Shown in pieces: positions 790 through 18,479 of a stretch of DNA of 22,316 nucleotides. The stretch is from a virus, in the IMG/VR virus record IMGVR_UViG_3300048541_000100, positions 1-22,316 of that record. The stretch is one strand, 5' to 3'. The notes under the pieces were generated by a model that saw only the letters and a program-made list of their open reading frames with translations, searched no databases and was not told the DNA's origin. Position 1 is the stretch's first letter. Each line of letters starts with the position of its first letter. The position numbers and the translations under genes were made by a program.

Positions 790-2097
790 TTAAACCTCTA
801 CAGGTGTTCTGCCTAATGGTTCTTCTTCTGGGCCTGCCGCTGCTGGTTCGTTAACATCCATTGCTGGCTCTTCTAATCCTACTTCAGGTTCTGCAGGTGC
901 GCCTAAGTCAGCAGTGTCACCTAAACCCATATCGTCAGTGTTTACAATTGTGCCTGCGCCGATTAAACCTGCTATAGCATTATCAATGCCATCTTTAGCA
1001 AGTTTTGAATTTTCTAAGTATCCGCTTAGTAAACCATTAACACTGTCTGCAAAAGTAGCTGCTGCTTGAGCACCCATTTCGCCACGCATTTGATCTGCAA
1101 TTGCAGGAAGACTTTCATTCATCATACGACCAATTTCTTCTACATGTCCTTGTATGTCGTCTGCTAATGCTCTTACTGCCATTACAACTTCTGCTTCTTC
1201 GATACTTGTACCTTCAACTTCTTCGTTTAGCATGTCGTCTATAATACTATCAAACATTGTGCTTTCGTTTTTCTTTTCGTCTTCAGTGTCGCCTGTTACT
1301 TCGTACTCTTCGCCGTCTACTGTAAATTTCTTTTCGCCTTTAGCAATAGCGTCTTTTCTTGCGCCTGTGAATTTGTTTTGCTCTGCTACTTTAGCACCAA
1401 ACATTTTAATACCGTTTGCAACTGCATCTTCATCTAAACCGTTTAAGAAACCAACAACTGCGTCTCTACTTTTTTCTGTTACTTTAGCAAAAGATTCTAA
1501 CTTCTCTTCAATTGCTTCTAGGCTTTCTGTACCTGTTAATTCAACACCACACTCTTTAGCAAGTTCTCTAAGCAATGAATCGTTAAGGTCTGTTTCTGGG
1601 ATATACTCGCCTTCTTCTTCAATACTTTCGTGATTCATACCACATGATTCCAAGTAGTTTTTTGCTGCTGAAAGGATAATTGGCATAACATGTTCATCAT
1701 CGTATGCAAAACGAGAGTCCATTCTGTACTGATTCATGCATTCGCCACAAGCCTCGTCTACAGTGTAGCCGCTGTCCATTAAACTACAAACACTAGCATT
1801 AATCATTTCTTTCATCTCACCATGTGCTGGTGATTCTGCGTACATGCCTTCGCTAATCATAGTTGTAAGAACATCTTTGATGCCTAAAAACTTTGCGTAA
1901 TCAGGATCTTGTTGAAACTTAGTTTTACCGCTTTTGATTAAAGCAATACTTTTGTTAGCAGTTTCTAGTAAACTGTCTAATTTTGCTTTCTTAGGAAATC
2001 CGGAGGTCTTCAATGACACACCAAATTCTTCCTTTAGCATTTTGTTAACTTTGGCAATCTTCTTTGCCCCGTTTTGGTTGAATTCTTTTAAAAACAT
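790..2097 (-). CDS. Acidic virion structural or prohead-core-like protein (435 aa)
   Basis: Strongly acidic and largely helical, with no transmembrane segment. Residues about 275-390 (FDSIIDDMLNEE, then VRALADDIQGHVEEIGRMM and a helix ending in GLIGAG) look like a conserved domain that I recall from structural proteins of marine T4-like phages. The tail after residue 400 is rich in Ala, Pro and Glu. At least seven (I/L)-x-E tripeptides occur (for example LLE, ISE, IEE, LNE, LEE), the cleavage signature of the T4 gp21 prohead protease, so a core or scaffold protein processed during maturation is one reading. Four cysteines lie close together around residues 104-130 and at 153. A late-type promoter GATAAATA lies about 38 bases upstream. 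It leads a three-gene unit ending at the terminator at 84-109. The exact role is not established. Confidence 0.8.
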   Translation of the reverse strand: MFLKEFNQNGAKKIAKVNKMLKEEFGVSLKTSGFPKKAKLDSLLETANKSIALIKSGKTKFQQDPDYAKFLGIKDVLTTMISEGMYAESPAHGEMKEMINASVCSLMDSGYTVDEACGECMNQYRMDSRFAYDDEHVMPIILSAAKNYLESCGMNHESIEEEGEYIPETDLNDSLLRELAKECGVELTGTESLEAIEEKLESFAKVTEKSRDAVVGFLNGLDEDAVANGIKMFGAKVAEQNKFTGARKDAIAKGEKKFTVDGEEYEVTGDTEDEKKNESTMFDSIIDDMLNEEVEGTSIEEAEVVMAVRALADDIQGHVEEIGRMMNESLPAIADQMRGEMGAQAAATFADSVNGLLSGYLENSKLAKDGIDNAIAGLIGAGTIVNTDDMGLGDTADLGAPAEPEVGLEEPAMDVNEPAAAGPEEEPLGRTPVEV

Positions 2098-2134
2098 TTT
2101 TATTAATCCCAGGTATTAAATTCTCTATTACTGT

Positions 2135-2142
2135 TATTTATC
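2135..2142 (-). promoter_or_regulatory. T4-like late promoter (GATAAATA)
   Basis: Minus-strand GATAAATA, one base different from the T4 late box TATAAATA, 37 bases before the start of the 435-aa gene. The same octamer precedes six other genes or operons in this window at 21-50 bases. Confidence 0.75.
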
Positions 2143-2157
2143 ATCTTTGTGAACATT

Positions 2158-2547
2158 TTAGTTGAACCGTTTGAGTTCGTCTTTGGTATAATTGAACTTA
2201 CATATTGTATCAAACAGTCTTGCTTCAACTACTTGGGATTTTGTAAAGTCTTTTGTGTTTTTTATAGTGTGTCTATAGAACATTATGTCGTTTTTACACC
2301 TATAATACTGTCCCATTAGCCCTTCTAACTTAATTTTAATAGTTATACTAGGTGCTTTTCCTTTATTACGAAGTCTGCATAAGTATGATGCAACACATTT
2401 CATTGGAATTTCTGTTGCTACTAAAGATTTAGTAATGTGCTCTTGCACAGCAAATGAATCGTTATGTTTGGTTACAACATACACACCTTTTTTAGCAACA
2501 TTAGTGGCTATAGTGTCTAATTGCTTGGTAAGTCTTTGCTTGTTCAT
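2158..2547 (-). CDS. Unknown basic protein (129 aa)
   Basis: I choose the ATG at 2547 (MNKQRLTKQLDT), because the longer frame would need a GTG at 2607 inside the upstream gene. The protein is basic, with short alternating strands (KKGVYVVTKHNDSFAV, then PSITIKIKLEGLMGQYYRCKNDIMFY) and a helical C-terminus, consistent with a small alpha/beta fold. No catalytic motif is recognised. No Shine-Dalgarno is visible before this ATG. Instead CATAAATA sits exactly five bases upstream, which would put a late transcription start on the A of the ATG (leaderless). It follows a 73-aa gene by 23 bases and is the last gene of the long late operon. Confidence 0.75.
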   Translation of the reverse strand: MNKQRLTKQLDTIATNVAKKGVYVVTKHNDSFAVQEHITKSLVATEIPMKCVASYLCRLRNKGKAPSITIKIKLEGLMGQYYRCKNDIMFYRHTIKNTKDFTKSQVVEARLFDTICKFNYTKDELKRFN

Positions 2548-2552
2548 ATAGG

Positions 2553-2560
2553 TATTTATG
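2553..2560 (-). promoter_or_regulatory. Late-promoter-like box adjoining a start codon (CATAAATA)
   Basis: CATAAATA on the minus strand, five bases before the ATG at 2547. With the T4 late geometry (octamer at -13 to -6) the +1 falls on the A of the ATG. The same arrangement occurs at 3472-3479 and 22009-22016. Confidence 0.45.
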
Positions 2561-2570
2561 AACTGGTGTT

Positions 2571-2792
2571 CTATAATTTTTGTTTTGCTGAGTATATAAT
2601 GTAGCACTCACACCCATTTTTGTTTACTTTATTGAAAATATTTTTTTGATGCATTACATCACAGAGATGTGCATCACGCTCAGACAGTTCATTTAATTTT
2701 AAACCGCCAAACAGTTCAGCCTGATCATATAGTTGTGTTTCAAACTTGTTAATTAGACTTAAGATGTTATCTTTACCTTTTACTGCTTTCAT
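2571..2792 (-). CDS. Small protein of unknown function (73 aa)
   Basis: Starts MKAVKGKDNILSL with an ATG that overlaps the stop of the sigma-region-4 gene in an ATGA (2789-2792), so it is translationally coupled to it. The protein looks mostly helical (LINKFETQLYDQAELFGGLKL then LSERDAHLCDV) with two closely spaced cysteines near the C-terminus (GCEC). No family is recognised. The coupling suggests a function together with the upstream gene, but nothing in the sequence shows it. Confidence 0.65.
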   Translation of the reverse strand: MKAVKGKDNILSLINKFETQLYDQAELFGGLKLNELSERDAHLCDVMHQKNIFNKVNKNGCECYIIYSAKQKL

Positions 2793-3466
2793 ATCTTTTG
2801 CTGATGCCTTGACTTTTTAGGCTTACCGTATCCGCCTGTTTGTAAAGTAGCCTCGGCATGCATTGCTGCCATGTGCTTCTTATATTTTTTAGTGCCTTTT
2901 TTATGTGGGCTTTTGCCTTCAGGCATAGTATCTTTGATATCTTTAACCATATCAGGATGTCTAAATTTGCGTAAAATCATTGATTCTATTTGTCGTGTTC
3001 TTTCTCTAGTAATACCAAACATTTTGCCAACATCTTCTAAACTATGTTGGTCCTCACCGTCAAGTCCATATCGTAAGGCTATAAGTTTTCTTTCTGCAGG
3101 TTTTAGTGTATCTAACATTTTAGAAAGTTTTTCATTTCTCTGCCTGTCCCTTATGTCTTTATCTAAGTCTTGATCGTATGTTAAGTCGTCATCGTCGAAT
3201 GAATCAAAGTCTTGTGCTTTGTTTACAGGATCTCTATCATCTAAATGTGGCATAGGTTGTTGCCTGTAAGTTTTGCCATCTGGATTATACAGAGATGCTT
3301 GTTGATTTGCATTTGCTTCGCTTGTTTTTTTCTTCTTTTTCTTTTTAGGAGTTGTATTAGCAAACACACTTGCATTAGGTCTTTTTTGCATAGCACCCAT
3401 AGGAGCTGCAACGGTAGCAATACCACCTGCACTAGTTGTTTCTTGAATAATATCGTTGATCTTCAT
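2789..3466 (-). CDS. Stand-alone sigma-70 region 4 protein (225 aa)
   Basis: Residues about 113-175 are a clear sigma-70 region 4: LKPAERKLIALRYGLDGED (4.1) followed by the helix-turn-helix SLEDVGKMFGITRERTRQIE (4.2) and LRKFRHPD, very close to the C-terminal end of bacterial RpoD. In RpoD this domain contacts the -35 element and the beta-flap of RNA polymerase. Regions 1, 2 and 3 are absent, so it cannot open a promoter by itself. In T4 the late co-activator gp33 occupies the beta-flap, so a comparable role is one inference. The N-terminus MKINDIIQE resembles a capsid-targeting leader ending in (I/L)-x-E, and residues 41-47 are seven lysines. The C-terminus is basic (KKGTKKYKKHMAAMHAE). No Shine-Dalgarno is seen. 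GGTAAATA lies five bases before the ATG. It lies 21 bases after the superoxide dismutase gene. Confidence 0.9.
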   Translation of the reverse strand: MKINDIIQETTSAGGIATVAAPMGAMQKRPNASVFANTTPKKKKKKKTSEANANQQASLYNPDGKTYRQQPMPHLDDRDPVNKAQDFDSFDDDDLTYDQDLDKDIRDRQRNEKLSKMLDTLKPAERKLIALRYGLDGEDQHSLEDVGKMFGITRERTRQIESMILRKFRHPDMVKDIKDTMPEGKSPHKKGTKKYKKHMAAMHAEATLQTGGYGKPKKSRHQQKI

Positions 3467-3471
3467 AGTAG

Positions 3472-3479
3472 TATTTACC
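3472..3479 (-). promoter_or_regulatory. Late-promoter-like box adjoining a start codon (GGTAAATA)
   Basis: GGTAAATA on the minus strand, five bases before the ATG of the sigma-region-4 gene, which has no visible Shine-Dalgarno. Same geometry as 2553-2560 and 22009-22016. It deviates from the late consensus at its first two bases. Confidence 0.4.
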
Positions 3480-3487
3480 GTTTTTAA

Positions 3488-4024
3488 TTATGTTAGTCTA
3501 ACGTTTACAATGTCCCAGTTAATAATACGCCACATATTGTTTAAGTATTTGCCTTTGTCATGTTGGTAATCTAATGCCCAAGCATGTTCCCACCAGTCAA
3601 CTAACATTGCAATGTCATTTTTAACTTGATGATTAACTATTGTTTTGATATCACCGGATGTACTCATGTATACCCAGCCGCTACCTTGTATCTTCATTGC
3701 TACTTCTTCGAACTGTTCTTTGAATGTAGCAAAGTCTCCATACTTACTGTCTATAAGTTCTTTACTTGCACCAGTAGGATTATTACTACCACCTGGTGCT
3801 TTCAATTGTGGAAAAAATATATTGTGTAAGAATGCACCTGCTTCCATAAACTGTGCATCGCCTTTGCCCTCGTTAAATTTTGTAACGTATGCTTTAGCAA
3901 GTTTACCATAGTGAAAGTTAATTGTGTCCTCACTCATAACAGGATTGAGATCGCTTTTACCGTAAGGTAATCTTTCTTGTACAAGTACTTTCTTTTCTTC
4001 TGTTAAAAAATCATTTAAGTTCAC
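3488..4024 (-). CDS. Fe/Mn superoxide dismutase with N-terminal extension (178 aa)
   Basis: Fe/Mn family superoxide dismutases convert superoxide to oxygen and hydrogen peroxide. From residue 19 (LPYGKSDLNPVMS) the protein follows this family to its end. All four metal ligands are in place: His38 (INFHYG), His67 (AFLHNIFF), Asp143 and His147 (LVDWWEHAW). The active-site Tyr46 (KAYV) and Trp117 (GSGWVYM) are kept. His132 (VNHQV) occupies the place where Mn enzymes often carry Gln, which bears on metal preference. At 178 residues it is slightly shorter than usual bacterial forms. The first 11 residues, MNLNDFLTEEK, are extra to the family and resemble the T4 capsid-targeting leader. The start is GTG, overlapping the upstream stop as GTGA (4021-4024), so translation is coupled to the ParB-like gene. 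A packaged, injected antioxidant is an inference. Confidence 0.93.
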   Translation of the reverse strand: MNLNDFLTEEKKVLVQERLPYGKSDLNPVMSEDTINFHYGKLAKAYVTKFNEGKGDAQFMEAGAFLHNIFFPQLKAPGGSNNPTGASKELIDSKYGDFATFKEQFEEVAMKIQGSGWVYMSTSGDIKTIVNHQVKNDIAMLVDWWEHAWALDYQHDKGKYLNNMWRIINWDIVNVRLT

Positions 4025-4917
4025 TTCTTTTTTCCGCCTTTCATGTTAGCACACCAGTGATACATTTTGCCTTTTTCACCACTATACTTTTTAGCCTTTG
4101 CTCTTAAACTTGTTACAGAACCTTTACAACTAGCACCTGCTTTTTTGACTCTACCAGGCTTGCTTTTGCCTTTCTTCTTACCGTCTGCAAAGTTTTCGTC
4201 GATTGCATTTAATAATGCTTGAAGGTCTTGCATTGCTTCTATTGTTTCGTATATGCTACCGCCAAACTTAACACTTGAAGTTTTCTTCTTTTTCTTCTTT
4301 TTCTTTTTCTTGTACGGTGCTAGTGTACCTATTCCTAAAAATCCTCTACTAACAGGAGCATCCATAGTAGGAGCATCGCCTGGATCAGCACCACCTACAT
4401 CACCACCTGCATCACCACCGGAATCGCCTCCGCCTGTTGCTGCACCACCATCACCACCTGCACTTGCACCACCACTGGCTCCACCTGAGCCTCCTGCTCC
4501 GGCTCCACCGCCGGCTCCACCACCACCGCCTCCGGCGCCGTCTTCGTATGTTTCTTCGTCTCTGGCTTTACTACTGTAATGCTTTATTAATTCTTCTATA
4601 GTAGCATCGACTCTAATTGCTTTAACTTTATCTAAGTCTAATTCTAATGCTACATCATATCTATGATGTCCGTTGACAATAAAATTATTTTTGTCTATAA
4701 TTATAGGTCTTATACTACCATCATCAAAGCCACGCTTTGCTTTATCTTTTAATCCTTTTACTCGTTGCTTTTGCACAGGCTTTAGATTAGATACTGATAT
4801 GTTTCCTAACTTATATGAGAAAGGGCCGTCGTCAAGATCAGGTTGCCTAATCTGAGGCATAATCTTTCGCGGGAAGTTTTTTTCTTGCTCCGGCCTTTGT
4901 AACTCAGAAAGTTTCAT
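4021..4917 (-). CDS. ParB/Srx-fold protein with Gly-rich linker and Lys-rich tail (298 aa)
   Basis: Residues about 36-112 form a ParB-like domain: a start of GNISVSNLKPVQ, then RPIIIDKNNFIVNGHHRYDVALEL, where the NGHHRYDVA box is the characteristic nucleotide-binding loop of this fold (ParB CTPases, sulfiredoxin, some nucleases). Which activity applies is not clear. Residues 127-180 are almost pure Gly/Ala/Ser/Asp, followed by ten lysines at 203-212. A basic C-terminus has two cysteines, SCKGSV and YHWCANM, a small module I recall from other marine T4-like phage proteins. The start MKLSELQRPE resembles the neighbours' leaders only loosely and lacks a clean (I/L)-x-E. The ATG overlaps the stop of the 1958-aa gene by one base (TAATG), and the stop overlaps the superoxide dismutase start. 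Confidence 0.85.
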   Translation of the reverse strand: MKLSELQRPEQEKNFPRKIMPQIRQPDLDDGPFSYKLGNISVSNLKPVQKQRVKGLKDKAKRGFDDGSIRPIIIDKNNFIVNGHHRYDVALELDLDKVKAIRVDATIEELIKHYSSKARDEETYEDGAGGGGGGAGGGAGAGGSGGASGGASAGGDGGAATGGGDSGGDAGGDVGGADPGDAPTMDAPVSRGFLGIGTLAPYKKKKKKKKKKTSSVKFGGSIYETIEAMQDLQALLNAIDENFADGKKKGKSKPGRVKKAGASCKGSVTSLRAKAKKYSGEKGKMYHWCANMKGGKKK

Positions 4918-7900
4918 TATCTCATTGATACCTGTACTGCTGGTCCATTCATCTTGTCACCCCAATCCAATGAACCCAATTTAAACTTGTCTAAGTGATT
5001 TTTATAATCATCTACATCAAATGCTAAACTTTTCTTGCCGCCAAGTTTTAAGAACAAGAACATACTAAAGCCTTTTTCTTTGAGTATGTTTGCATAACTG
5101 CTGTAAGATATTTCGCCTGCTAGTGTACTTGCATCCGCTCTATCCATGCCAGTGTAGTTTGCAATCATATAGTTAATCATGCTTTTATCGCCATATTTAA
5201 ATGTAGCAGTAAATAGTTCTTGTATGTATGCTTTACCTGCACCTGCTGCAAGTGTGTCTAATTGAGTAGCAATATCCAGGAAGTGTGTTCCTGCTCTACT
5301 ACCTGCGTTACCACTTGGTAAACGTTGTGGTCTATCTTCTGGTGCAATTTTAAACTTGTCGTAAACTGCATCTAACTGTGGCTGTCCGTAGTCGGCATTA
5401 CTATTTTTAAGTCTGCCACCACCACTTGACTTCTCACCTTTAACTTCAACTTCGACACCATCAATTTTTAAATCACCTACACTAGCAAATGTAATGTTAG
5501 GTGCTAACAGTGCAAGACCAACTTCGCCTGGTCCTCTATTAGAGCCTTCAATGTTTAGTGCTATGTTAAACAAGTTATCATATAGTTCTGTTATAAATTC
5601 TGTACTAACTCCTTCGGCACCTTTTAGCCATTGATCCCATGTTGATGCACCGTCTGCCATTAAAACTTTAGTATCAACATAGCTCACTTGTCCGTATGTG
5701 GAAAGGAAGTTTTCGATGTCGTCAAAATCACCCTTAGTATTCATAATTGCTTTTACGAACTCTGGTAGTACACCTTTATAACTGTAGTCTGCTTCTGGTG
5801 CTGTTTTCTCTGGCTTTAAGAAATCTTCAGGGTGTACTCGTTCATGGTTTTCAGCATCTGTTCTCATAAAACGGTAAACTCGTTGTATGAATGCTGGGTT
5901 ATCTTTTAATTTATCTATAATAAAATTGAATCTTTCTTTATCTCTGTCTAAGTCATCTTCCGACAACATGCTTTCTTTAAGTCCTGCTTTTTGTTTAATA
6001 GTAGGATGTACTTTGTTTTGTACAAAGCCTTTGAATATAGAACGCAAATCAGTATCAGGACCTGCACCACTAGCGGCTTCTCTGAAAGCTCTAATCATAC
6101 TAGGATCAGGTACTACAAAATATGCTTCCATTTGTGCTTTTAAATCACTAGCAAGTAACGGAACATTTAGTAACTCTTGTATCTTCTTTTCTGGTGAGTT
6201 GTCTGGTACTGCACCTTCTACATATTTTGCTTTTTTACCAGACTTATTAGGGTGTTCAAAACCTTTACCTTTCTTTTTATATGCTTCGTTGATTTTATTA
6301 CTGTCAACTTTGTTCAATAAGTTTAATTGCTCTTCTAGTGGCAACTTGTCAAACTTGTTAAATGTACTTTCTTTACTCATCCTTCTAATCCTATCTCTTT
6401 GAGCTTGGGCGTCAGCTTCGCTACTATGTACTGTACTAACATCGTCTCCTAGACTACCATCAGCATTTAGTCTAAAATAGTTTCCGCCACTTACTTTATA
6501 ATTTTTTTCTATGTATTCTTTAGCCGCTTTAACCGCAGCCGCCCATCTTTCTGTGCCTATTGCTTTTTCATTATCTGGGCGCCAGTTGTGATTGCTGTCA
6601 AATTGATCATAAACTTTCTGTAACAAGTTTACACCTTGATTGCCTACGCCACGCTCTATTTTTAAGTAGTCTGCTAGATTACCCCAATTTGTGCTATTTG
6701 CTACACCGTTTGAAGATGCTCCTTCAAGTCCTTCTACATCAGCGGCGTCAACCATACCCGATATTGCGTTCTTTGCTTTTTGTTGTTTTTCTTGGTCTGC
6801 TTTTGCCTTCTTAGAAAGTTCTGGATTATTTACATGCCACGAAGCTGCTGCCATTGTATCAAGCGGTTCGCCGTATGGTCCTTCTGCTTCTTCACTTGGA
6901 AGTAATGGCTTGAACTGACCCATTCCTTCTCTGCCATCACCTAAGGATGGCTCAAATTTGACATTTCTTTGCTTTAATAAATTTTTAATTTCACCATCAT
7001 TTGAATTTATGTTTATGTAATTACTTTCGTCTGCTACTCCACTAAAACCAGCATCGTAAACTTGCTGGAATTTACGAAGTACTTTCATTGCTACTTTCTC
7101 TCTCCATGTACCTTTATGTGCATCATTTGCTAATATATCACTAGCAACTAATGCCTGATGATAATGAGCAGTAGGTATACTTAGTATGTTTCCAAGTCTA
7201 CTTTGTACTTTACTTTGTGGGCTTTGTAATTCTTGGGCAATATCACGGTCAGTGATCATATCTTCGCCGGCTTTAAGATTTCTATAATACGAACTTGAAA
7301 CAAATATTGAACCACCAAATTTAAATACTGGAAGTGTACCAATGTGTGGAGACCCGTGTTTTTTCTTAAACTGATCCTGTTTTACATCTAATTTTTTCTT
7401 TTTATCAATGGCTGTTTGTTGAGAATCAAATCCAAACTCTTGTGCAATTTTATCAAACCCTTCTAAGAAATTTTTTATATTAGTGGTACGCTCGCCAATT
7501 AACTTTTGTATATACTCGTCATCGTAGTAATCAGGAGTTCCTTTCTTTTTATCGTAATATCTTTCGTATGAAGATCTTAAATAATCTTGCATTGTATTTC
7601 TAAATCTGTGTGCAACTGGTTCACTAAACGCATCTGGTCTGCCTCTAACTTCATCAATAGCATTTTCCAATGTCTCTGCAGCATATTTGCTCATTGCAAA
7701 ATATGCAGGACCTTCACGCACATCTTCATGTCTAGTGCCTTTTACTTGAGGATGGTTATCAACCATATAATTGTCTTCGGCTTTATTTTGCTTAACTAGT
7801 TTTTCTGCAAGATCAGCAATTACCTTCATGCTATCATAATATTTTGCAGGCTGGTCTTGTCTAACATCTTCTAAATGTTCCCAACGAAGTCTCATTTTTT

Positions 7901-11771: not shown

Positions 11772-11779
11772 TATTTATC
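11772..11779 (-). promoter_or_regulatory. T4-like late promoter (GATAAATA)
   Basis: Minus-strand GATAAATA. With late geometry +1 falls near 11766, giving a 16-base leader with GGAG before the ATG at 11750. It appears to drive the long operon down to about 2158, in which I see no internal terminator. Confidence 0.8.
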
Positions 11780-12964: not shown

Positions 12965-13522
12965 CTATGCTTTAAAATCCGATTTATTTATACTAAGAGC
13001 GTCTAAGTTTCTGGCTTGTGATTTTGCTTTTCCTAATGCTGAACTAAATGTTGTTCCAAGATCTGTTGTGTTTAGACCTGCTGTTGGATTTAATTTCTTT
13101 AATATTCTTTGTCTTGTGTTGCCATCACCGGCAGTATAATCTTTGACTGCATTCTGGTTACCTACTTGGGCACCTCGTTTTTTCTTAGGCTCTGCTGACA
13201 GTTTAACTGGAGAATCAGTATTTGTTTTATCAGATTTCTTTTTAGATTTTCTGTCTTTTGTTTGTTTCTTGCCAGTTACATATTCACTGTCTGGGTACAT
13301 ATCTTGTACTGCTGCTTTGATTGCTGTTCCTGCATTATAATTTGGCTTATTAAAATATTGTAAAGCATTCATAACAACTGAAGCCTTATGGAATTGCATT
13401 GCCCACTGATACTTGTTTCCGTTAGGATCTAAAAACTCGCCGTCAAATTCTTGATTAAGTAATTCAAGTGAATCTTTAGTACCTTGGGTTTCACGCTCTG
13501 CTATAATTTCATCAATTCTCAT
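12965..13522 (-). CDS. Basic protein with capsid-targeting-like N-terminus (185 aa)
   Basis: Begins MRIDEIIAE followed by RET; the I-A-E end is the same tripeptide as in the T4 internal-protein leader MKTYQEFIAE. Residues 30-80 look folded (FLDPNGNKYQWAMQFHKASV), and 85-125 are a disordered Lys/Ser/Asp stretch (KKQTKDRKSKKKSDKTN, then EPKKKRGAQVGNQNA). The C-terminal third is polar. No enzymatic motif is recognised. AAGGAAG precedes the ATG, which overlaps the stop of the 268-aa gene as ATGA. Last gene of the operon from 18738. A DNA-associated, packaged protein is a plausible inference. Confidence 0.78.
   Translation of the reverse strand: MRIDEIIAERETQGTKDSLELLNQEFDGEFLDPNGNKYQWAMQFHKASVVMNALQYFNKPNYNAGTAIKAAVQDMYPDSEYVTGKKQTKDRKSKKKSDKTNTDSPVKLSAEPKKKRGAQVGNQNAVKDYTAGDGNTRQRILKKLNPTAGLNTTDLGTTFSSALGKAKSQARNLDALSINKSDFKA
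12985..12992 (-). promoter_or_regulatory. Possible second late promoter (canonical TATAAATA)
   Basis: Minus-strand TATAAATA, identical to the T4 late consensus, inside the last codons of the 185-aa gene and 62 bases before the 86-aa MAQ gene. It may add to the promoter at 12954-12961, or may only be coding sequence. Confidence 0.4.
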
Positions 13523-15614: not shown

Positions 15615-18479
15615 TTAGATGCCTGCTAACTTTTTCATTTCTGACATTTGTACAACATCAGTTGGTATTAGCATAACATGTGATGTTACACTTTCTGAAA
15701 TTAATACTTCGTATCCTATATCTGCCCAAGTAAGTCCTGCATGTTCTAGTATAGCACACATGTGTTCGTATGCTTCTGCTCTCATGCTTCTTGCCATTTT
15801 AACAAAAGTTGCGTATGCTTGTGGATCTGATTTTGCTAATCCACCTTTCTTCATTACTGGAGCTGCCGCTTGTATAAATTTATCTGCATCGTATCCTTTA
15901 CTTTTTAGTTCACTTAATTTAGCAACTAATGCTTTTGCAGATGCTAAGTCACCTTGTAGTGTCTTAGACTGTAACATTTTTAACTCTGCTGTAGTAGGAC
16001 CTGGTACTGCTTTAGGAGCACCTTGTGCTGGCTGTTGTCCTTGTGGTTGTGCTGGCTGTTCACCTGCTTGTGGTTGTGCTGGTTGTCCTGGTTGTGCTGG
16101 TTGCTCTGGTGTTCCTGGTTCCTCTGGTGTTCCTGGTTCTGCTTGTTGTCCGCCACCGGACTTACCAAACATTCCACCAATTGCTGCTCCTACTACGCCT
16201 GCTGCTTTCTTTCCTAAACTTGCTTTAGGATCTGATCTTGTTTTTTGTGCTAAGCCTGGTGTTTTACCTGATACCCAATCTTTTGCTCTTTGTATTAAAC
16301 CAGGATTCTTTAATGCAGTACCGTCACCGTTTCTGCCATACTTTGCCATTAAGTCTTGTTGCATTGCACCTTGTGCAGATCTACCTTGTGGGTCTTTCCA
16401 GCCTGTGCCGTCAAATGTAAACTTAATGCCATTAATTGTTTCTGACTTGCCTACTTTCAATTCTGGTAAATTTGAATCTTCTGCATCGCCATCTTGTGCT
16501 TGTTGTACACCTTTGCCTATTGCGCCACTACCACCTGCAGAACCCCCTGTAGGACCGCTTGTAGTGCCCTGTGCGCCTGTTTGTTGTCCTCCGGCACCTT
16601 GTGCACCACCTTGAGGTTGATCAGGCTGTGTGCCGCCCTGTGGTTGTTCTGGTTGCCCACCCTGTGGTTGTTCTGGTTGTTCTGGTTGTTCTGGTTGTTC
16701 TGGTTGTTCTGGTTGTTCACCTTGTGGTTGCTCTGGCTGTTCGCCTTCTGGCTCTTCTTCTGGTGCTACTGCTTCTACACCAGCCGCTTTAAATGCCGCA
16801 TCAACTTCTTCTTTTGTTGCACCTGCATTCTTTTGCAAGAATTTAGCAACATCATCTGACTCTGTTGGTGATTTAGCCGCTGTATAATCTGCTTGTAATT
16901 TCTCAGGATCTATTGCACCTTGCATACCTGTTATTGCTGCTATCTTATTTGTAAATGCTTTTACTGGAGCACTGTTAAGAATTGGCTTGATAACAGTATT
17001 AACTGCGGCAGTACCAACTGCTTTGGCTGCTTGTCCTACTTTGCCTACTGCTGACTTATATGCACCACCAACTTTTTTAGCAATGCCACCTAAATCTGGT
17101 GCTTCGCTCATTGTTTGTTCTATGTTTTCGATTAATTTATGCTCTTGTAAATGCTCCATGCCTTCAATAATAACTTTATTATCTTTAACATGTTTGTTGT
17201 ACCATTCCAGCATAACAAATACTGCTACTTCTTCACCTACTTGTTCAACTAATGCATCAAAGTCTTCGCCAACTTCTTCTGATAATACATTTTTCCACTC
17301 AGGATGTACAAAACTTTGAGTCAAGTTGTCTGCTACATCACCACCTACTTCGCTTTTTACTGCTCCACCAACTGATGCTGCAATTTGATTTCTAAATTCT
17401 CCAGCTTCTGCGGAAAATAATCCATCCATGCCGCCGCCATTAGCTGCAACAATTTGATTGTATTCTGCAAATTCTTGTGGATCCATTAGCACACCCATTG
17501 ATGAACCAAAGCCTTCTGCCTTCATTACAAGTTTGCCGTCTGTGATTTCAGCACTTCGTGCCATCATAGATTCGTATTTGTCTGCATACTCAGGACCAAC
17601 ATTCATTCTTCCTAAGAGTTCTTCGGTTGCTGTAGGCTGAGCTGAGAATAATTCATCTGCTAACGCATCTTCATCAGCATTTAGGTTATCGATAAACGAA
17701 TCAATTTCGTCCATGCTCATTCCTGCGTCTTGTCCTGCACTTGCTAAGTCAACTTCTTGAGCTGGGAAAGATGTTGACATTAAGTTTTCATCACCTTCTA
17801 TTGGTACATCTCCAAATCCACTTAGTATATTACCTGCAAGTCCTGCAATAGCACCTTTGGCTGCGCCTACGGCTGCTGTTTTAGCAATGTCTGCTACAGT
17901 TCCACCTGCGGCTGCTTTGATAGCACTGTCTACTACTGTTCTAAATATTGCTGTTGTTCCTATAATACCAAGTACTGCTGGTCCACCTGCTCCTGCGACA
18001 CCCATTCCAATAGTGATAACTGTCATCATCAAGCCTTTGAATGCTGCAATGTCTTCATCATTTTCAATTGACTGAGCACCTTTTTGGATAGCGGCAACAA
18101 CTGCTGATGCATTTTTGCCTGCAGGGTCTGGTAATTTTGCAACCATTACTTTTAATCTTTCAATAGGTACTGCGTTACCTACTTTAGATAGTATTGCTTT
18201 AAGTTTGGGATTACCAGTTATTTTTGCAAATAATGGTGTTAGTTGAAGTTGAGCTTTCTTTGCTAGTTGAGCAGTGTTTCCACCTTCGCCACGATTAGTA
18301 ACTAAGCTCTGAAATACACCTTGTATTTGCTCTGGCGCAAGTGCTGCCTCGTTGAGTTTAGTTAACTCTCTAACTATTGTATTTAAATCTTCTCTAACAG
18401 AAACAGGCAGTTCTTGCCAGGCTTCGTTTATCTTAATATTTTCTGTTATTAGATCAATATCTTTACGAATTAGATTCAT
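15615..18479 (-). CDS. Large repeat-rich protein with a membrane-like segment (954 aa)
   Basis: Leader MNLIRKDIDLITE ends in I-T-E, with a second I-N-E before AWQ. Residues about 145-223 form long Gly/Ala/Val/Ile-rich hydrophobic stretches (GLMMTVITIGMGVAGAGG, then TAAVGAAKGAIAGLAGNI) that could cross or perforate a membrane. A second such area follows near 470-530 (KKVGGAYKSAVGKVGQAAK). Residues about 570-640 are Gln/Pro/Glu repeats (EQP units) and 765-815 are Pro/Gln/Gly-rich, both likely flexible. A short folded unit, INGIKFTFDGTGWKDPQG, lies between. The C-terminal about 120 residues are a helical domain (YEHMCAILEHAGLTWADIGY). No enzyme motif. The start overlaps the 91-aa gene by 17 bases; GGAAG precedes it. 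Confidence 0.8.
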   Translation of the reverse strand: MNLIRKDIDLITENIKINEAWQELPVSVREDLNTIVRELTKLNEAALAPEQIQGVFQSLVTNRGEGGNTAQLAKKAQLQLTPLFAKITGNPKLKAILSKVGNAVPIERLKVMVAKLPDPAGKNASAVVAAIQKGAQSIENDEDIAAFKGLMMTVITIGMGVAGAGGPAVLGIIGTTAIFRTVVDSAIKAAAGGTVADIAKTAAVGAAKGAIAGLAGNILSGFGDVPIEGDENLMSTSFPAQEVDLASAGQDAGMSMDEIDSFIDNLNADEDALADELFSAQPTATEELLGRMNVGPEYADKYESMMARSAEITDGKLVMKAEGFGSSMGVLMDPQEFAEYNQIVAANGGGMDGLFSAEAGEFRNQIAASVGGAVKSEVGGDVADNLTQSFVHPEWKNVLSEEVGEDFDALVEQVGEEVAVFVMLEWYNKHVKDNKVIIEGMEHLQEHKLIENIEQTMSEAPDLGGIAKKVGGAYKSAVGKVGQAAKAVGTAAVNTVIKPILNSAPVKAFTNKIAAITGMQGAIDPEKLQADYTAAKSPTESDDVAKFLQKNAGATKEEVDAAFKAAGVEAVAPEEEPEGEQPEQPQGEQPEQPEQPEQPEQPEQPQGGQPEQPQGGTQPDQPQGGAQGAGGQQTGAQGTTSGPTGGSAGGSGAIGKGVQQAQDGDAEDSNLPELKVGKSETINGIKFTFDGTGWKDPQGRSAQGAMQQDLMAKYGRNGDGTALKNPGLIQRAKDWVSGKTPGLAQKTRSDPKASLGKKAAGVVGAAIGGMFGKSGGGQQAEPGTPEEPGTPEQPAQPGQPAQPQAGEQPAQPQGQQPAQGAPKAVPGPTTAELKMLQSKTLQGDLASAKALVAKLSELKSKGYDADKFIQAAAPVMKKGGLAKSDPQAYATFVKMARSMRAEAYEHMCAILEHAGLTWADIGYEVLISESVTSHVMLIPTDVVQMSEMKKLAGI
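16018..16146 (-). repeat. Imperfect Pro/Gln/Gly-coding repeats
   Basis: Degenerate 9- to 12-base units on the plus strand (ggttgtgct, ggttgtcct, ggtgttcct) encode a Pro/Gln/Glu/Gly-rich linker of the 954-aa protein. In frame throughout. Confidence 0.7.
16666..16719 (-). repeat. Tandem 9-base repeat (six units) coding EQP
   Basis: Six consecutive copies of ggttgttct on the plus strand (the last differs at one base), coding an (EQP)n run at about residues 588-605 of the 954-aa protein. Length change by one unit keeps the frame, so copy number may vary among relatives. Confidence 0.9.

Follow-up and report, generated by a model that had tools for sequence, protein, structure and literature searches.

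Locus and late-promoter context

The DNA analysed here, a stretch of 22,316 nucleotides referred to as the window, is a fragment of the genome of a marine T4-related phage, with helicase and primase genes recognised by their resemblance to those of annotated phages. Its DUF6267 protein (4e-99) has relatives in 466 phage records, mostly of cyanophages. Two contigs are syntenic with the window: one of 92 kb (G002), in which many genes are 80-95% identical, and one of 340 kb (G011), in which the DUF6267 protein is 63% and the superoxide dismutase (SOD) 87% identical. The larger contig, a jumbo relative, encodes a protease of the gp21 type, proteins that resemble scaffold and capsid, SOD and proteins framed as described below (L283:8769-15577, L285:7806-10714), with the gene order of the window.

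The gene of main concern lies on the minus strand at 2789-3466 and encodes a protein of 225 aa (ORF list, Pfam, genome search); this open reading frame and the motif LEDVGKMFGITRERTRQIE, both quoted in the original prediction, are there. Adjacent to it, likewise on the minus strand, are the genes of an Fe/Mn SOD (3488-4024; Sod_Fe_C, 3.9e-22) and of a protein with a ParB-like middle (4021-4917; phrog_620, 9.6e-10). The protein of 1958 aa encoded at 4917-10793 matches Amidoligase_2 weakly (5.8e-5) and has the leader MKAKDIRTLKSLISE.

The sequence GATAAATA is found seven times in the window; over the two strands, 1.46 copies would be expected, and none of 100 shuffles attains seven. Every copy lies in a gap between genes and on the coding strand, which makes GATAAATA a strong candidate for a late promoter. 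The late box of T4, TATAAATA, was discarded, showing no enrichment (2 found, 2.41 expected). One GATAAATA copy (11772-11779, minus strand) stands at the head of an operon running to 2158, in which the genes, SOD and sigma gene included, are separated by 21 nt or less or overlap; the next copy (2135-2142, minus strand) is located downstream of the operon. Read from these sites and the operon layout, the sigma gene would be part of a late operon and its product made late. A variant late promoter, GGTAAATA, identified by comparison with relatives, precedes its ATG by 5 nt (3472-3479, minus strand). Of the 13 relatives read, 8 have GATAAATA at this position; the four closest have GGTAAATA, and L005 has AATAAATA. 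The box is placed 5-6 nt upstream of the ATG in all 14 sequences read, a distance that suggests a leaderless late mRNA. A simple scan of positions 1900-5200 for sigma-70 promoters yielded 8, with 10.6 expected.

A detached sigma-70 region 4

Pfam assigns residues 118-170 of the full 225-aa protein to Sigma70_r4 (PF04545; E 3e-13, 49.5 bits vs a cut-off of 24.1), and a genome search of the 22-kb record locates the domain at 2957-3115 on the minus strand (9e-16), with no second copy in the record. Families of sigma region 2 or 3 were detected neither by Pfam nor by PHROG searches, no domain other than Sigma70_r4 is seen in Pfam at E 0.1, and the PHROG matches are confined to phrog_351, phrog_36, phrog_11138 and phrog_1740. 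The closest PDB sequence is RpoD (4g6d_A, 8.6e-17). In the AlphaFold model, the leader is disordered and confidence is restricted to residues of about 98-180 (pLDDT blocks mostly 81-96). Foldseek and VIA-align match the model to region 4 chains of sigma-A/sigma-70; the best match among those listed has a Z of 10.8 (83 aligned, rmsd 3.3), in the range below about 13 in which helical bundles may share a common arrangement. Despite this caveat, sequence and structure agree on the sigma-4 identity of the domain, which comprises residues 98-181 (2924-3175, minus strand; Pfam, PDB, AlphaFold, Foldseek, VIA-align and RpoD alignment).

In an alignment with a 613-aa RpoD, R154, E155, R158 and Q159 are identical to R584, E585, R588 and Q589. 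R584 and E585 touch the -35 bases (PMC2613000), R584, E585 and Q589 have been named for -35 recognition (PMC8407463), and region 4 peptides in isolation are able to bind promoter DNA (PMC2613000). The protein is hence what the original prediction had taken it for, a region 4 very near that of RpoD and detached from regions 2 and 3: of the hallmarks of the sigma-70 family, it has region 4 with the -35 contact residues and lacks region 2, which is responsible for core binding and -10 recognition. Many small ORFs of phage contigs likewise consist of region 4 without region 2, and this part of the finding is therefore not new; as a novelty, the detached sigma-4 itself was dropped.

The domain gives no signal of the host, a genome scan returning three bacterial matches of 39-51% identity. 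The 225-aa protein is known from one lineage only, as would be expected of a decaying fusion, in which the captured end of an rpoD gene persists without function in a hypervariable phage gene. The open reading frame, the intact predicted fold, the retained contact residues and an identical sequence in a second contig (L025) all speak against decay, which is very improbable.

A constant frame around exchanged middles

A search of IMG/VR revealed relatives that match the window protein at its two ends only. This frame, constant among the relatives, consists of the first ~48 and the last ~43 residues, and its DNA is 88-94% identical in close relatives. In four of these, 105-113 of the first 120 nt and 116-120 of the last 132 nt are identical, the middles being unrelated. 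The fixed N-terminal part (3317-3466, minus strand; residues 1 to about 50, judged by identity in the four) is common to them up to about residue 40-51. At the C-terminal side, the border is positioned at ~E183, L027 sharing four residues more (from D179), followed by the C-terminal tag GKSPHKKGTKKYKKHMAAMHAEATLQTGGYGKPKKSRHQQKI (tag 1; residues 184-225; 2792-2917, minus strand), in which the AlphaFold model has a helix at residues 193-209. Queries with the frame or the tag gave no match among isolate phages. In a regex census, 18 distinct proteins had both ends, 8 the leader end only and 27 the tag only; sigma-4 is found in one of the 18 (the window sequence and its copies), and a framed protein of 68 aa (L058) is nearly empty between the ends.

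The ParB-like protein (4021-4917) is a second framed protein with a different C-terminal tag (tag 2, NFADGKKKGKSKPGRVKKAGASCKGSV..., 4024-4194, minus strand) directly preceded by I-D-E, and in G002 and G011 its gene exists as a 65-aa version without the middle. The novelty is the setting, a constant frame round swapped middles, rather than region 4 itself; the original prediction had overlooked that the middle can be swapped and that the C-terminal tag comes with a cleavage-like site.

Sigma-4 is also part of other tagged proteins. In L012 (7539-8333), L013 and L014 (7578-8372), pterin-4a-carbinolamine dehydratase is fused to Sigma70_r4 and ends with GFSQKAHCAGRKK, a tag-1 protein adjoining; proteins of the dehydratase family double as transcription cofactors elsewhere. 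In a protein of G003 with no clear leader, Sigma70_r4_2 (1.7e-10) is followed by D-I-D-E and a further tag (tag 5, see below). Together with the window protein, sigma-4 therefore occurs in three tagged architectures.

Detached sigma-4 proteins with neither leader nor tag are common in phage contigs, and the window protein could act in the cytoplasm of the producing cell, as a late repressor or decoy on RNA polymerase or -35 DNA, the leader and tag being incidental. An incidental leader does not explain, however, why the whole frame is conserved around a changing middle, and such a role appears quite improbable.

The exchange of middles also bears on a role like that of T4 gp33, which the original prediction had envisaged and which has become less likely. 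As a late coactivator replacing gp33, the protein would operate with gp55 at GATAAATA promoters and hold the beta-flap. The late-type promoter at the sigma gene is in line with this, as is the distribution of the two families: the gp55-type phrog_234 is found in G011 (7.4e-24), and the gp33 family phrog_254 neither in G011 nor in five other contigs, being found in HTVC008M and Melnitz. However, -35-like hexamers are not in excess upstream of the late boxes (3.29 vs 3.38 in shuffled sequence), which argues against sigma-4 reading a -35 element at late promoters. Sigma70_r4 was absent from the equivalent slot in G011 and the other syntenic relatives searched, and late transcription in this lineage is therefore independent of sigma-4. 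Moreover, the 225-aa protein does not match phrog_254, and unrelated middles occupy the frame elsewhere. Replacement of gp33 is accordingly judged distinctly improbable.

Leader sequences

In the strict leader pattern applied here, a glutamate at position 9-12 is preceded by hydrophobic residues at E-6, E-3 and E-2. The predicted capsid-targeting leader of the sigma protein, MKINDIIQE (residues 1-9; 3440-3466, minus strand), has these hydrophobic residues and an ending of the type L/I-x-E. Their spacing is that of T4 leaders. A cut after E9 (I-Q-E / T) is predicted from the rule that T4 gp21 cleaves after L/I-x-E (PMC9026906). The packaging-like leader of the original prediction is present, with T4 capsid-targeting spacing; it persists as a whole where the middle is swapped, and it is like the leaders of virion-detected enzymes of phage S-CREM2.

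The strict pattern is matched by 4 of the 23 window proteins, with a chance of 0.0091 per start (p=5e-5): the sigma protein (2789-3466), SOD (3488-4024; MNLNDFLTE / EKK) and two further products of the minus strand (450-788, MLIREVISE / GYF; 12965-13522, MRIDEIIAE / RET). It was substituted for a loose L/I-x-E rule, which proved noisy (11/23 in the window, 34/153 in HTVC008M). In S-CREM2, strict leaders are found in 5 of 26 virion-detected vs 4 of 130 undetected proteins (Fisher p=0.007), five being a small number. The test set, drawn from two stretches of S-CREM2, comprised 156 CDS and half (26) of the 52 virion proteins that Table 3 lists; another Fisher test (8/15 vs 20/130) omitted 8 tail/portal and 3 head proteins of the 26. 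Among the five are a SAM hydrolase, a kinase and a cytidylyltransferase, for which the authors thought encapsulation possible (PMC10665884). In a sample of 153 of the 198 annotated features of HTVC008M, two proteins match, a tail-fibre assembly protein and uvsX, neither an obvious cargo. Taken with the S-CREM2 enrichment, the leader is therefore a serviceable marker, although not a universal one. The Cas9-like virion protein gp12 of S-CREM2 (L288:7704-10313) contains FMAE / A close to the N-terminus; this may be a leader that comes after a wrongly placed start.

The leader of the window SOD is kept in two relatives. The jumbo phages PA5oct and Vibrio phage 2.275.O have SODs without this leader, and the 'ESI-MS/MS' note for PA5oct therefore supports SOD packaging only weakly. 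A protein of 954 aa (15615-18479, minus strand) ends with EMKKLAGI, an ending it has in common with the C-terminus of a relative's scaffold-like protein. The motif [hydrophobic]xx[hydrophobic][KR]xLAG[IL] is located at the C-termini of cargo-like proteins and of one scaffold-like protein (15618-15665; L285:8963-10075; L198:2677-3768), and also within other proteins, directly before site-like E residues; it is possibly a second core-binding signal.

Junctions resembling prohead-protease sites

The predicted cleavage site in front of tag 1, M181-P-E183 / G184 (2918-2926, minus strand), is deduced from the statistics of the octamers before the tag and has the form hydrophobic-x-E / G. E precedes the tag in all 48 distinct octamers, the search pattern having made no demand for it, and 38 of the 48 have a residue of the set L, V, I, M and F at P3, vs a mean of 0.198 at adjacent positions (p=1.4e-18). 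When similar octamers are thinned to leave 36, P3 is one of these residues in 28 (p=1.3e-13); V or M occupies it in 17 of the 48, whereas the specificity described for gp21 is L/I, a point against the cleavage prediction. Tag 5 (AEYQGRKVKLN...), which is unrelated to tag 1 and occurs in HTVC008M, Melnitz and other isolate phages, follows E in 14/14 and has L, I, V, M or F at P3 in 12/14 distinct rows, some of them close kin. The junction of tag 2 is weaker (E in 9/10; P3 aliphatic in 4/9, aliphatic or aromatic in 8/9). Yet another tag follows I-S-E / G in S-CREM2 gp160 (L289:21343-22236; ...EISEGKKDACYHKVKARYDVWPSAYASGALVKCR), a virion-detected protein.

The tag 1 junction resembles the site of the T4 gp21 protease and would presumably be cleaved in the same way. 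No protease gene was recognised in the 22-kb window, which is a genome fragment. The gp21 family (PF03420) is present in G011, HTVC008M and Melnitz, and a protease was found in 3/12 and 3/9 of the relative records searched, many of which are fragments.

The evidence for packaging, frame swap and leader, would be the same for an internal head protein in which the helix-turn-helix of sigma-4 serves only to bind or condense the phage DNA in the head and takes no part in transcription. The helix-turn-helix and the basic stretches are suited to DNA binding, and the other middles tested yielded no transcription domain. Retention of the equivalents of all four -35 base-reading residues, R584, E585, R588 and Q589, nevertheless goes beyond the needs of plain packing, and the recurrence of sigma-4 in three different tagged architectures likewise counts against this explanation, which is considered unlikely.

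A proposed capsid-cargo model

The sigma-4 fold and the -35 residues within it, the exchange of middles inside the frame, the junctions that look like protease sites and the late-promoter context are observed, whereas packaging, cleavage, injection and an effect on RNA polymerase are inferred. In the preferred reading, which is given an even chance, the gene is an interchangeable capsid-cargo cassette with a sigma-4 domain delivered at infection, in the following manner: The protein, made late, would be drawn into the prohead core by its 9-residue leader of the T4 capsid-targeting type. Cuts after I-Q-E9 and after M-P-E183, made by a prohead protease of the gp21 type, would then remove the leader and detach the tag at the C-terminus. 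What is released between them, a region 4 of sigma-70 with a flexible arm at its N-terminus, would be kept in the head and enter the host cell together with the DNA. There, sigma-4 may occupy the beta-flap, -35 DNA or both, and so weaken the host sigma-70 at promoters that depend on a -35 element, ahead of phage gene expression. A sigma fragment injected with the DNA may thus disturb host transcription from the outset.

A broader proposal is put forward tentatively, at slightly less than an even chance. Marine T4-like phages, including the 340-kb relative, would possess a general cargo system of capsid-targeting leaders, unrelated C-terminal tags at prohead-protease sites and exchangeable middles, cut into separate injected proteins. 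The middles would comprise sigma region 4, ParB-like proteins, pterin dehydratase plus sigma-4 and many unknowns, SOD having the leader only, and the sigma-4 protein would serve as a decoy sigma domain brought in by the capsid, a new route to the takeover of host transcription. If this holds true, leaders and tags are a readable code for injected proteins among the unknown proteins of phages, and sequence alone would suffice to compile lists of host-takeover and anti-defence proteins for abundant ocean phages. Sigma region 4 would then be a ready-made weapon turned on the RNA polymerase of the host at a time when no phage gene has yet been read.

Comparison with known systems

In open-licence PMC literature on capsid targeting and prohead proteases, as far as its accessible text goes, no description of sigma-4 cargo or of cleavable C-terminal tags was found. 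The T4 counterpart of the proposed early attack on the polymerase is chemical modification by Alt, which is packaged, processed by gp21 at its N- and C-terminus and, once injected, targets the RNA polymerase of the host (PMC9026906). Unlike Alt, the window protein has no ADP-ribosyltransferase domain detectable by Pfam, and its proposed mode of action is binding rather than modification.

The internal proteins IPI-IPIII of T4 also have a short N-terminal leader that ends with L/I-x-E, its hydrophobic residues being spaced as in the window protein. T4 internal-protein leaders measure 10-19 residues, and in IPIII residues 4 and 7 serve targeting and residues 8 and 10 processing; the mature parts are variable, and many are injected and have been suggested to help in taking over the host (PMC9026906). 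The window protein differs from IPI-IPIII by its middle, a sigma-70 region 4, and by a conserved C-terminal tag with a site-like junction.

Like T4 gp33, the window protein would sit on the beta-flap, provided that the sigma-4 contacts hold; unlike gp33 (phrog_254), to which it has no sequence match, it possesses a true sigma-4 fold, a leader and a tag. It shares region 4 without region 2 with the stand-alone phage sigma-4 proteins (phrog_351, phrog_36 and similar), among which, as listed and apart from the tagged proteins of L012-L014, it alone bears this leader or these tags at its ends. The SAM hydrolase, kinase and cytidylyltransferase of S-CREM2, detected in the virion (PMC10665884), have the leaders MKDFDSFLEE, MKRFDAFLTE and MKNFSSFLTE, which the available text of that paper does not describe as targeting signals. 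These leader-bearing virion proteins are enzymes, whereas the putative cargo of the window is a sigma-4 domain.
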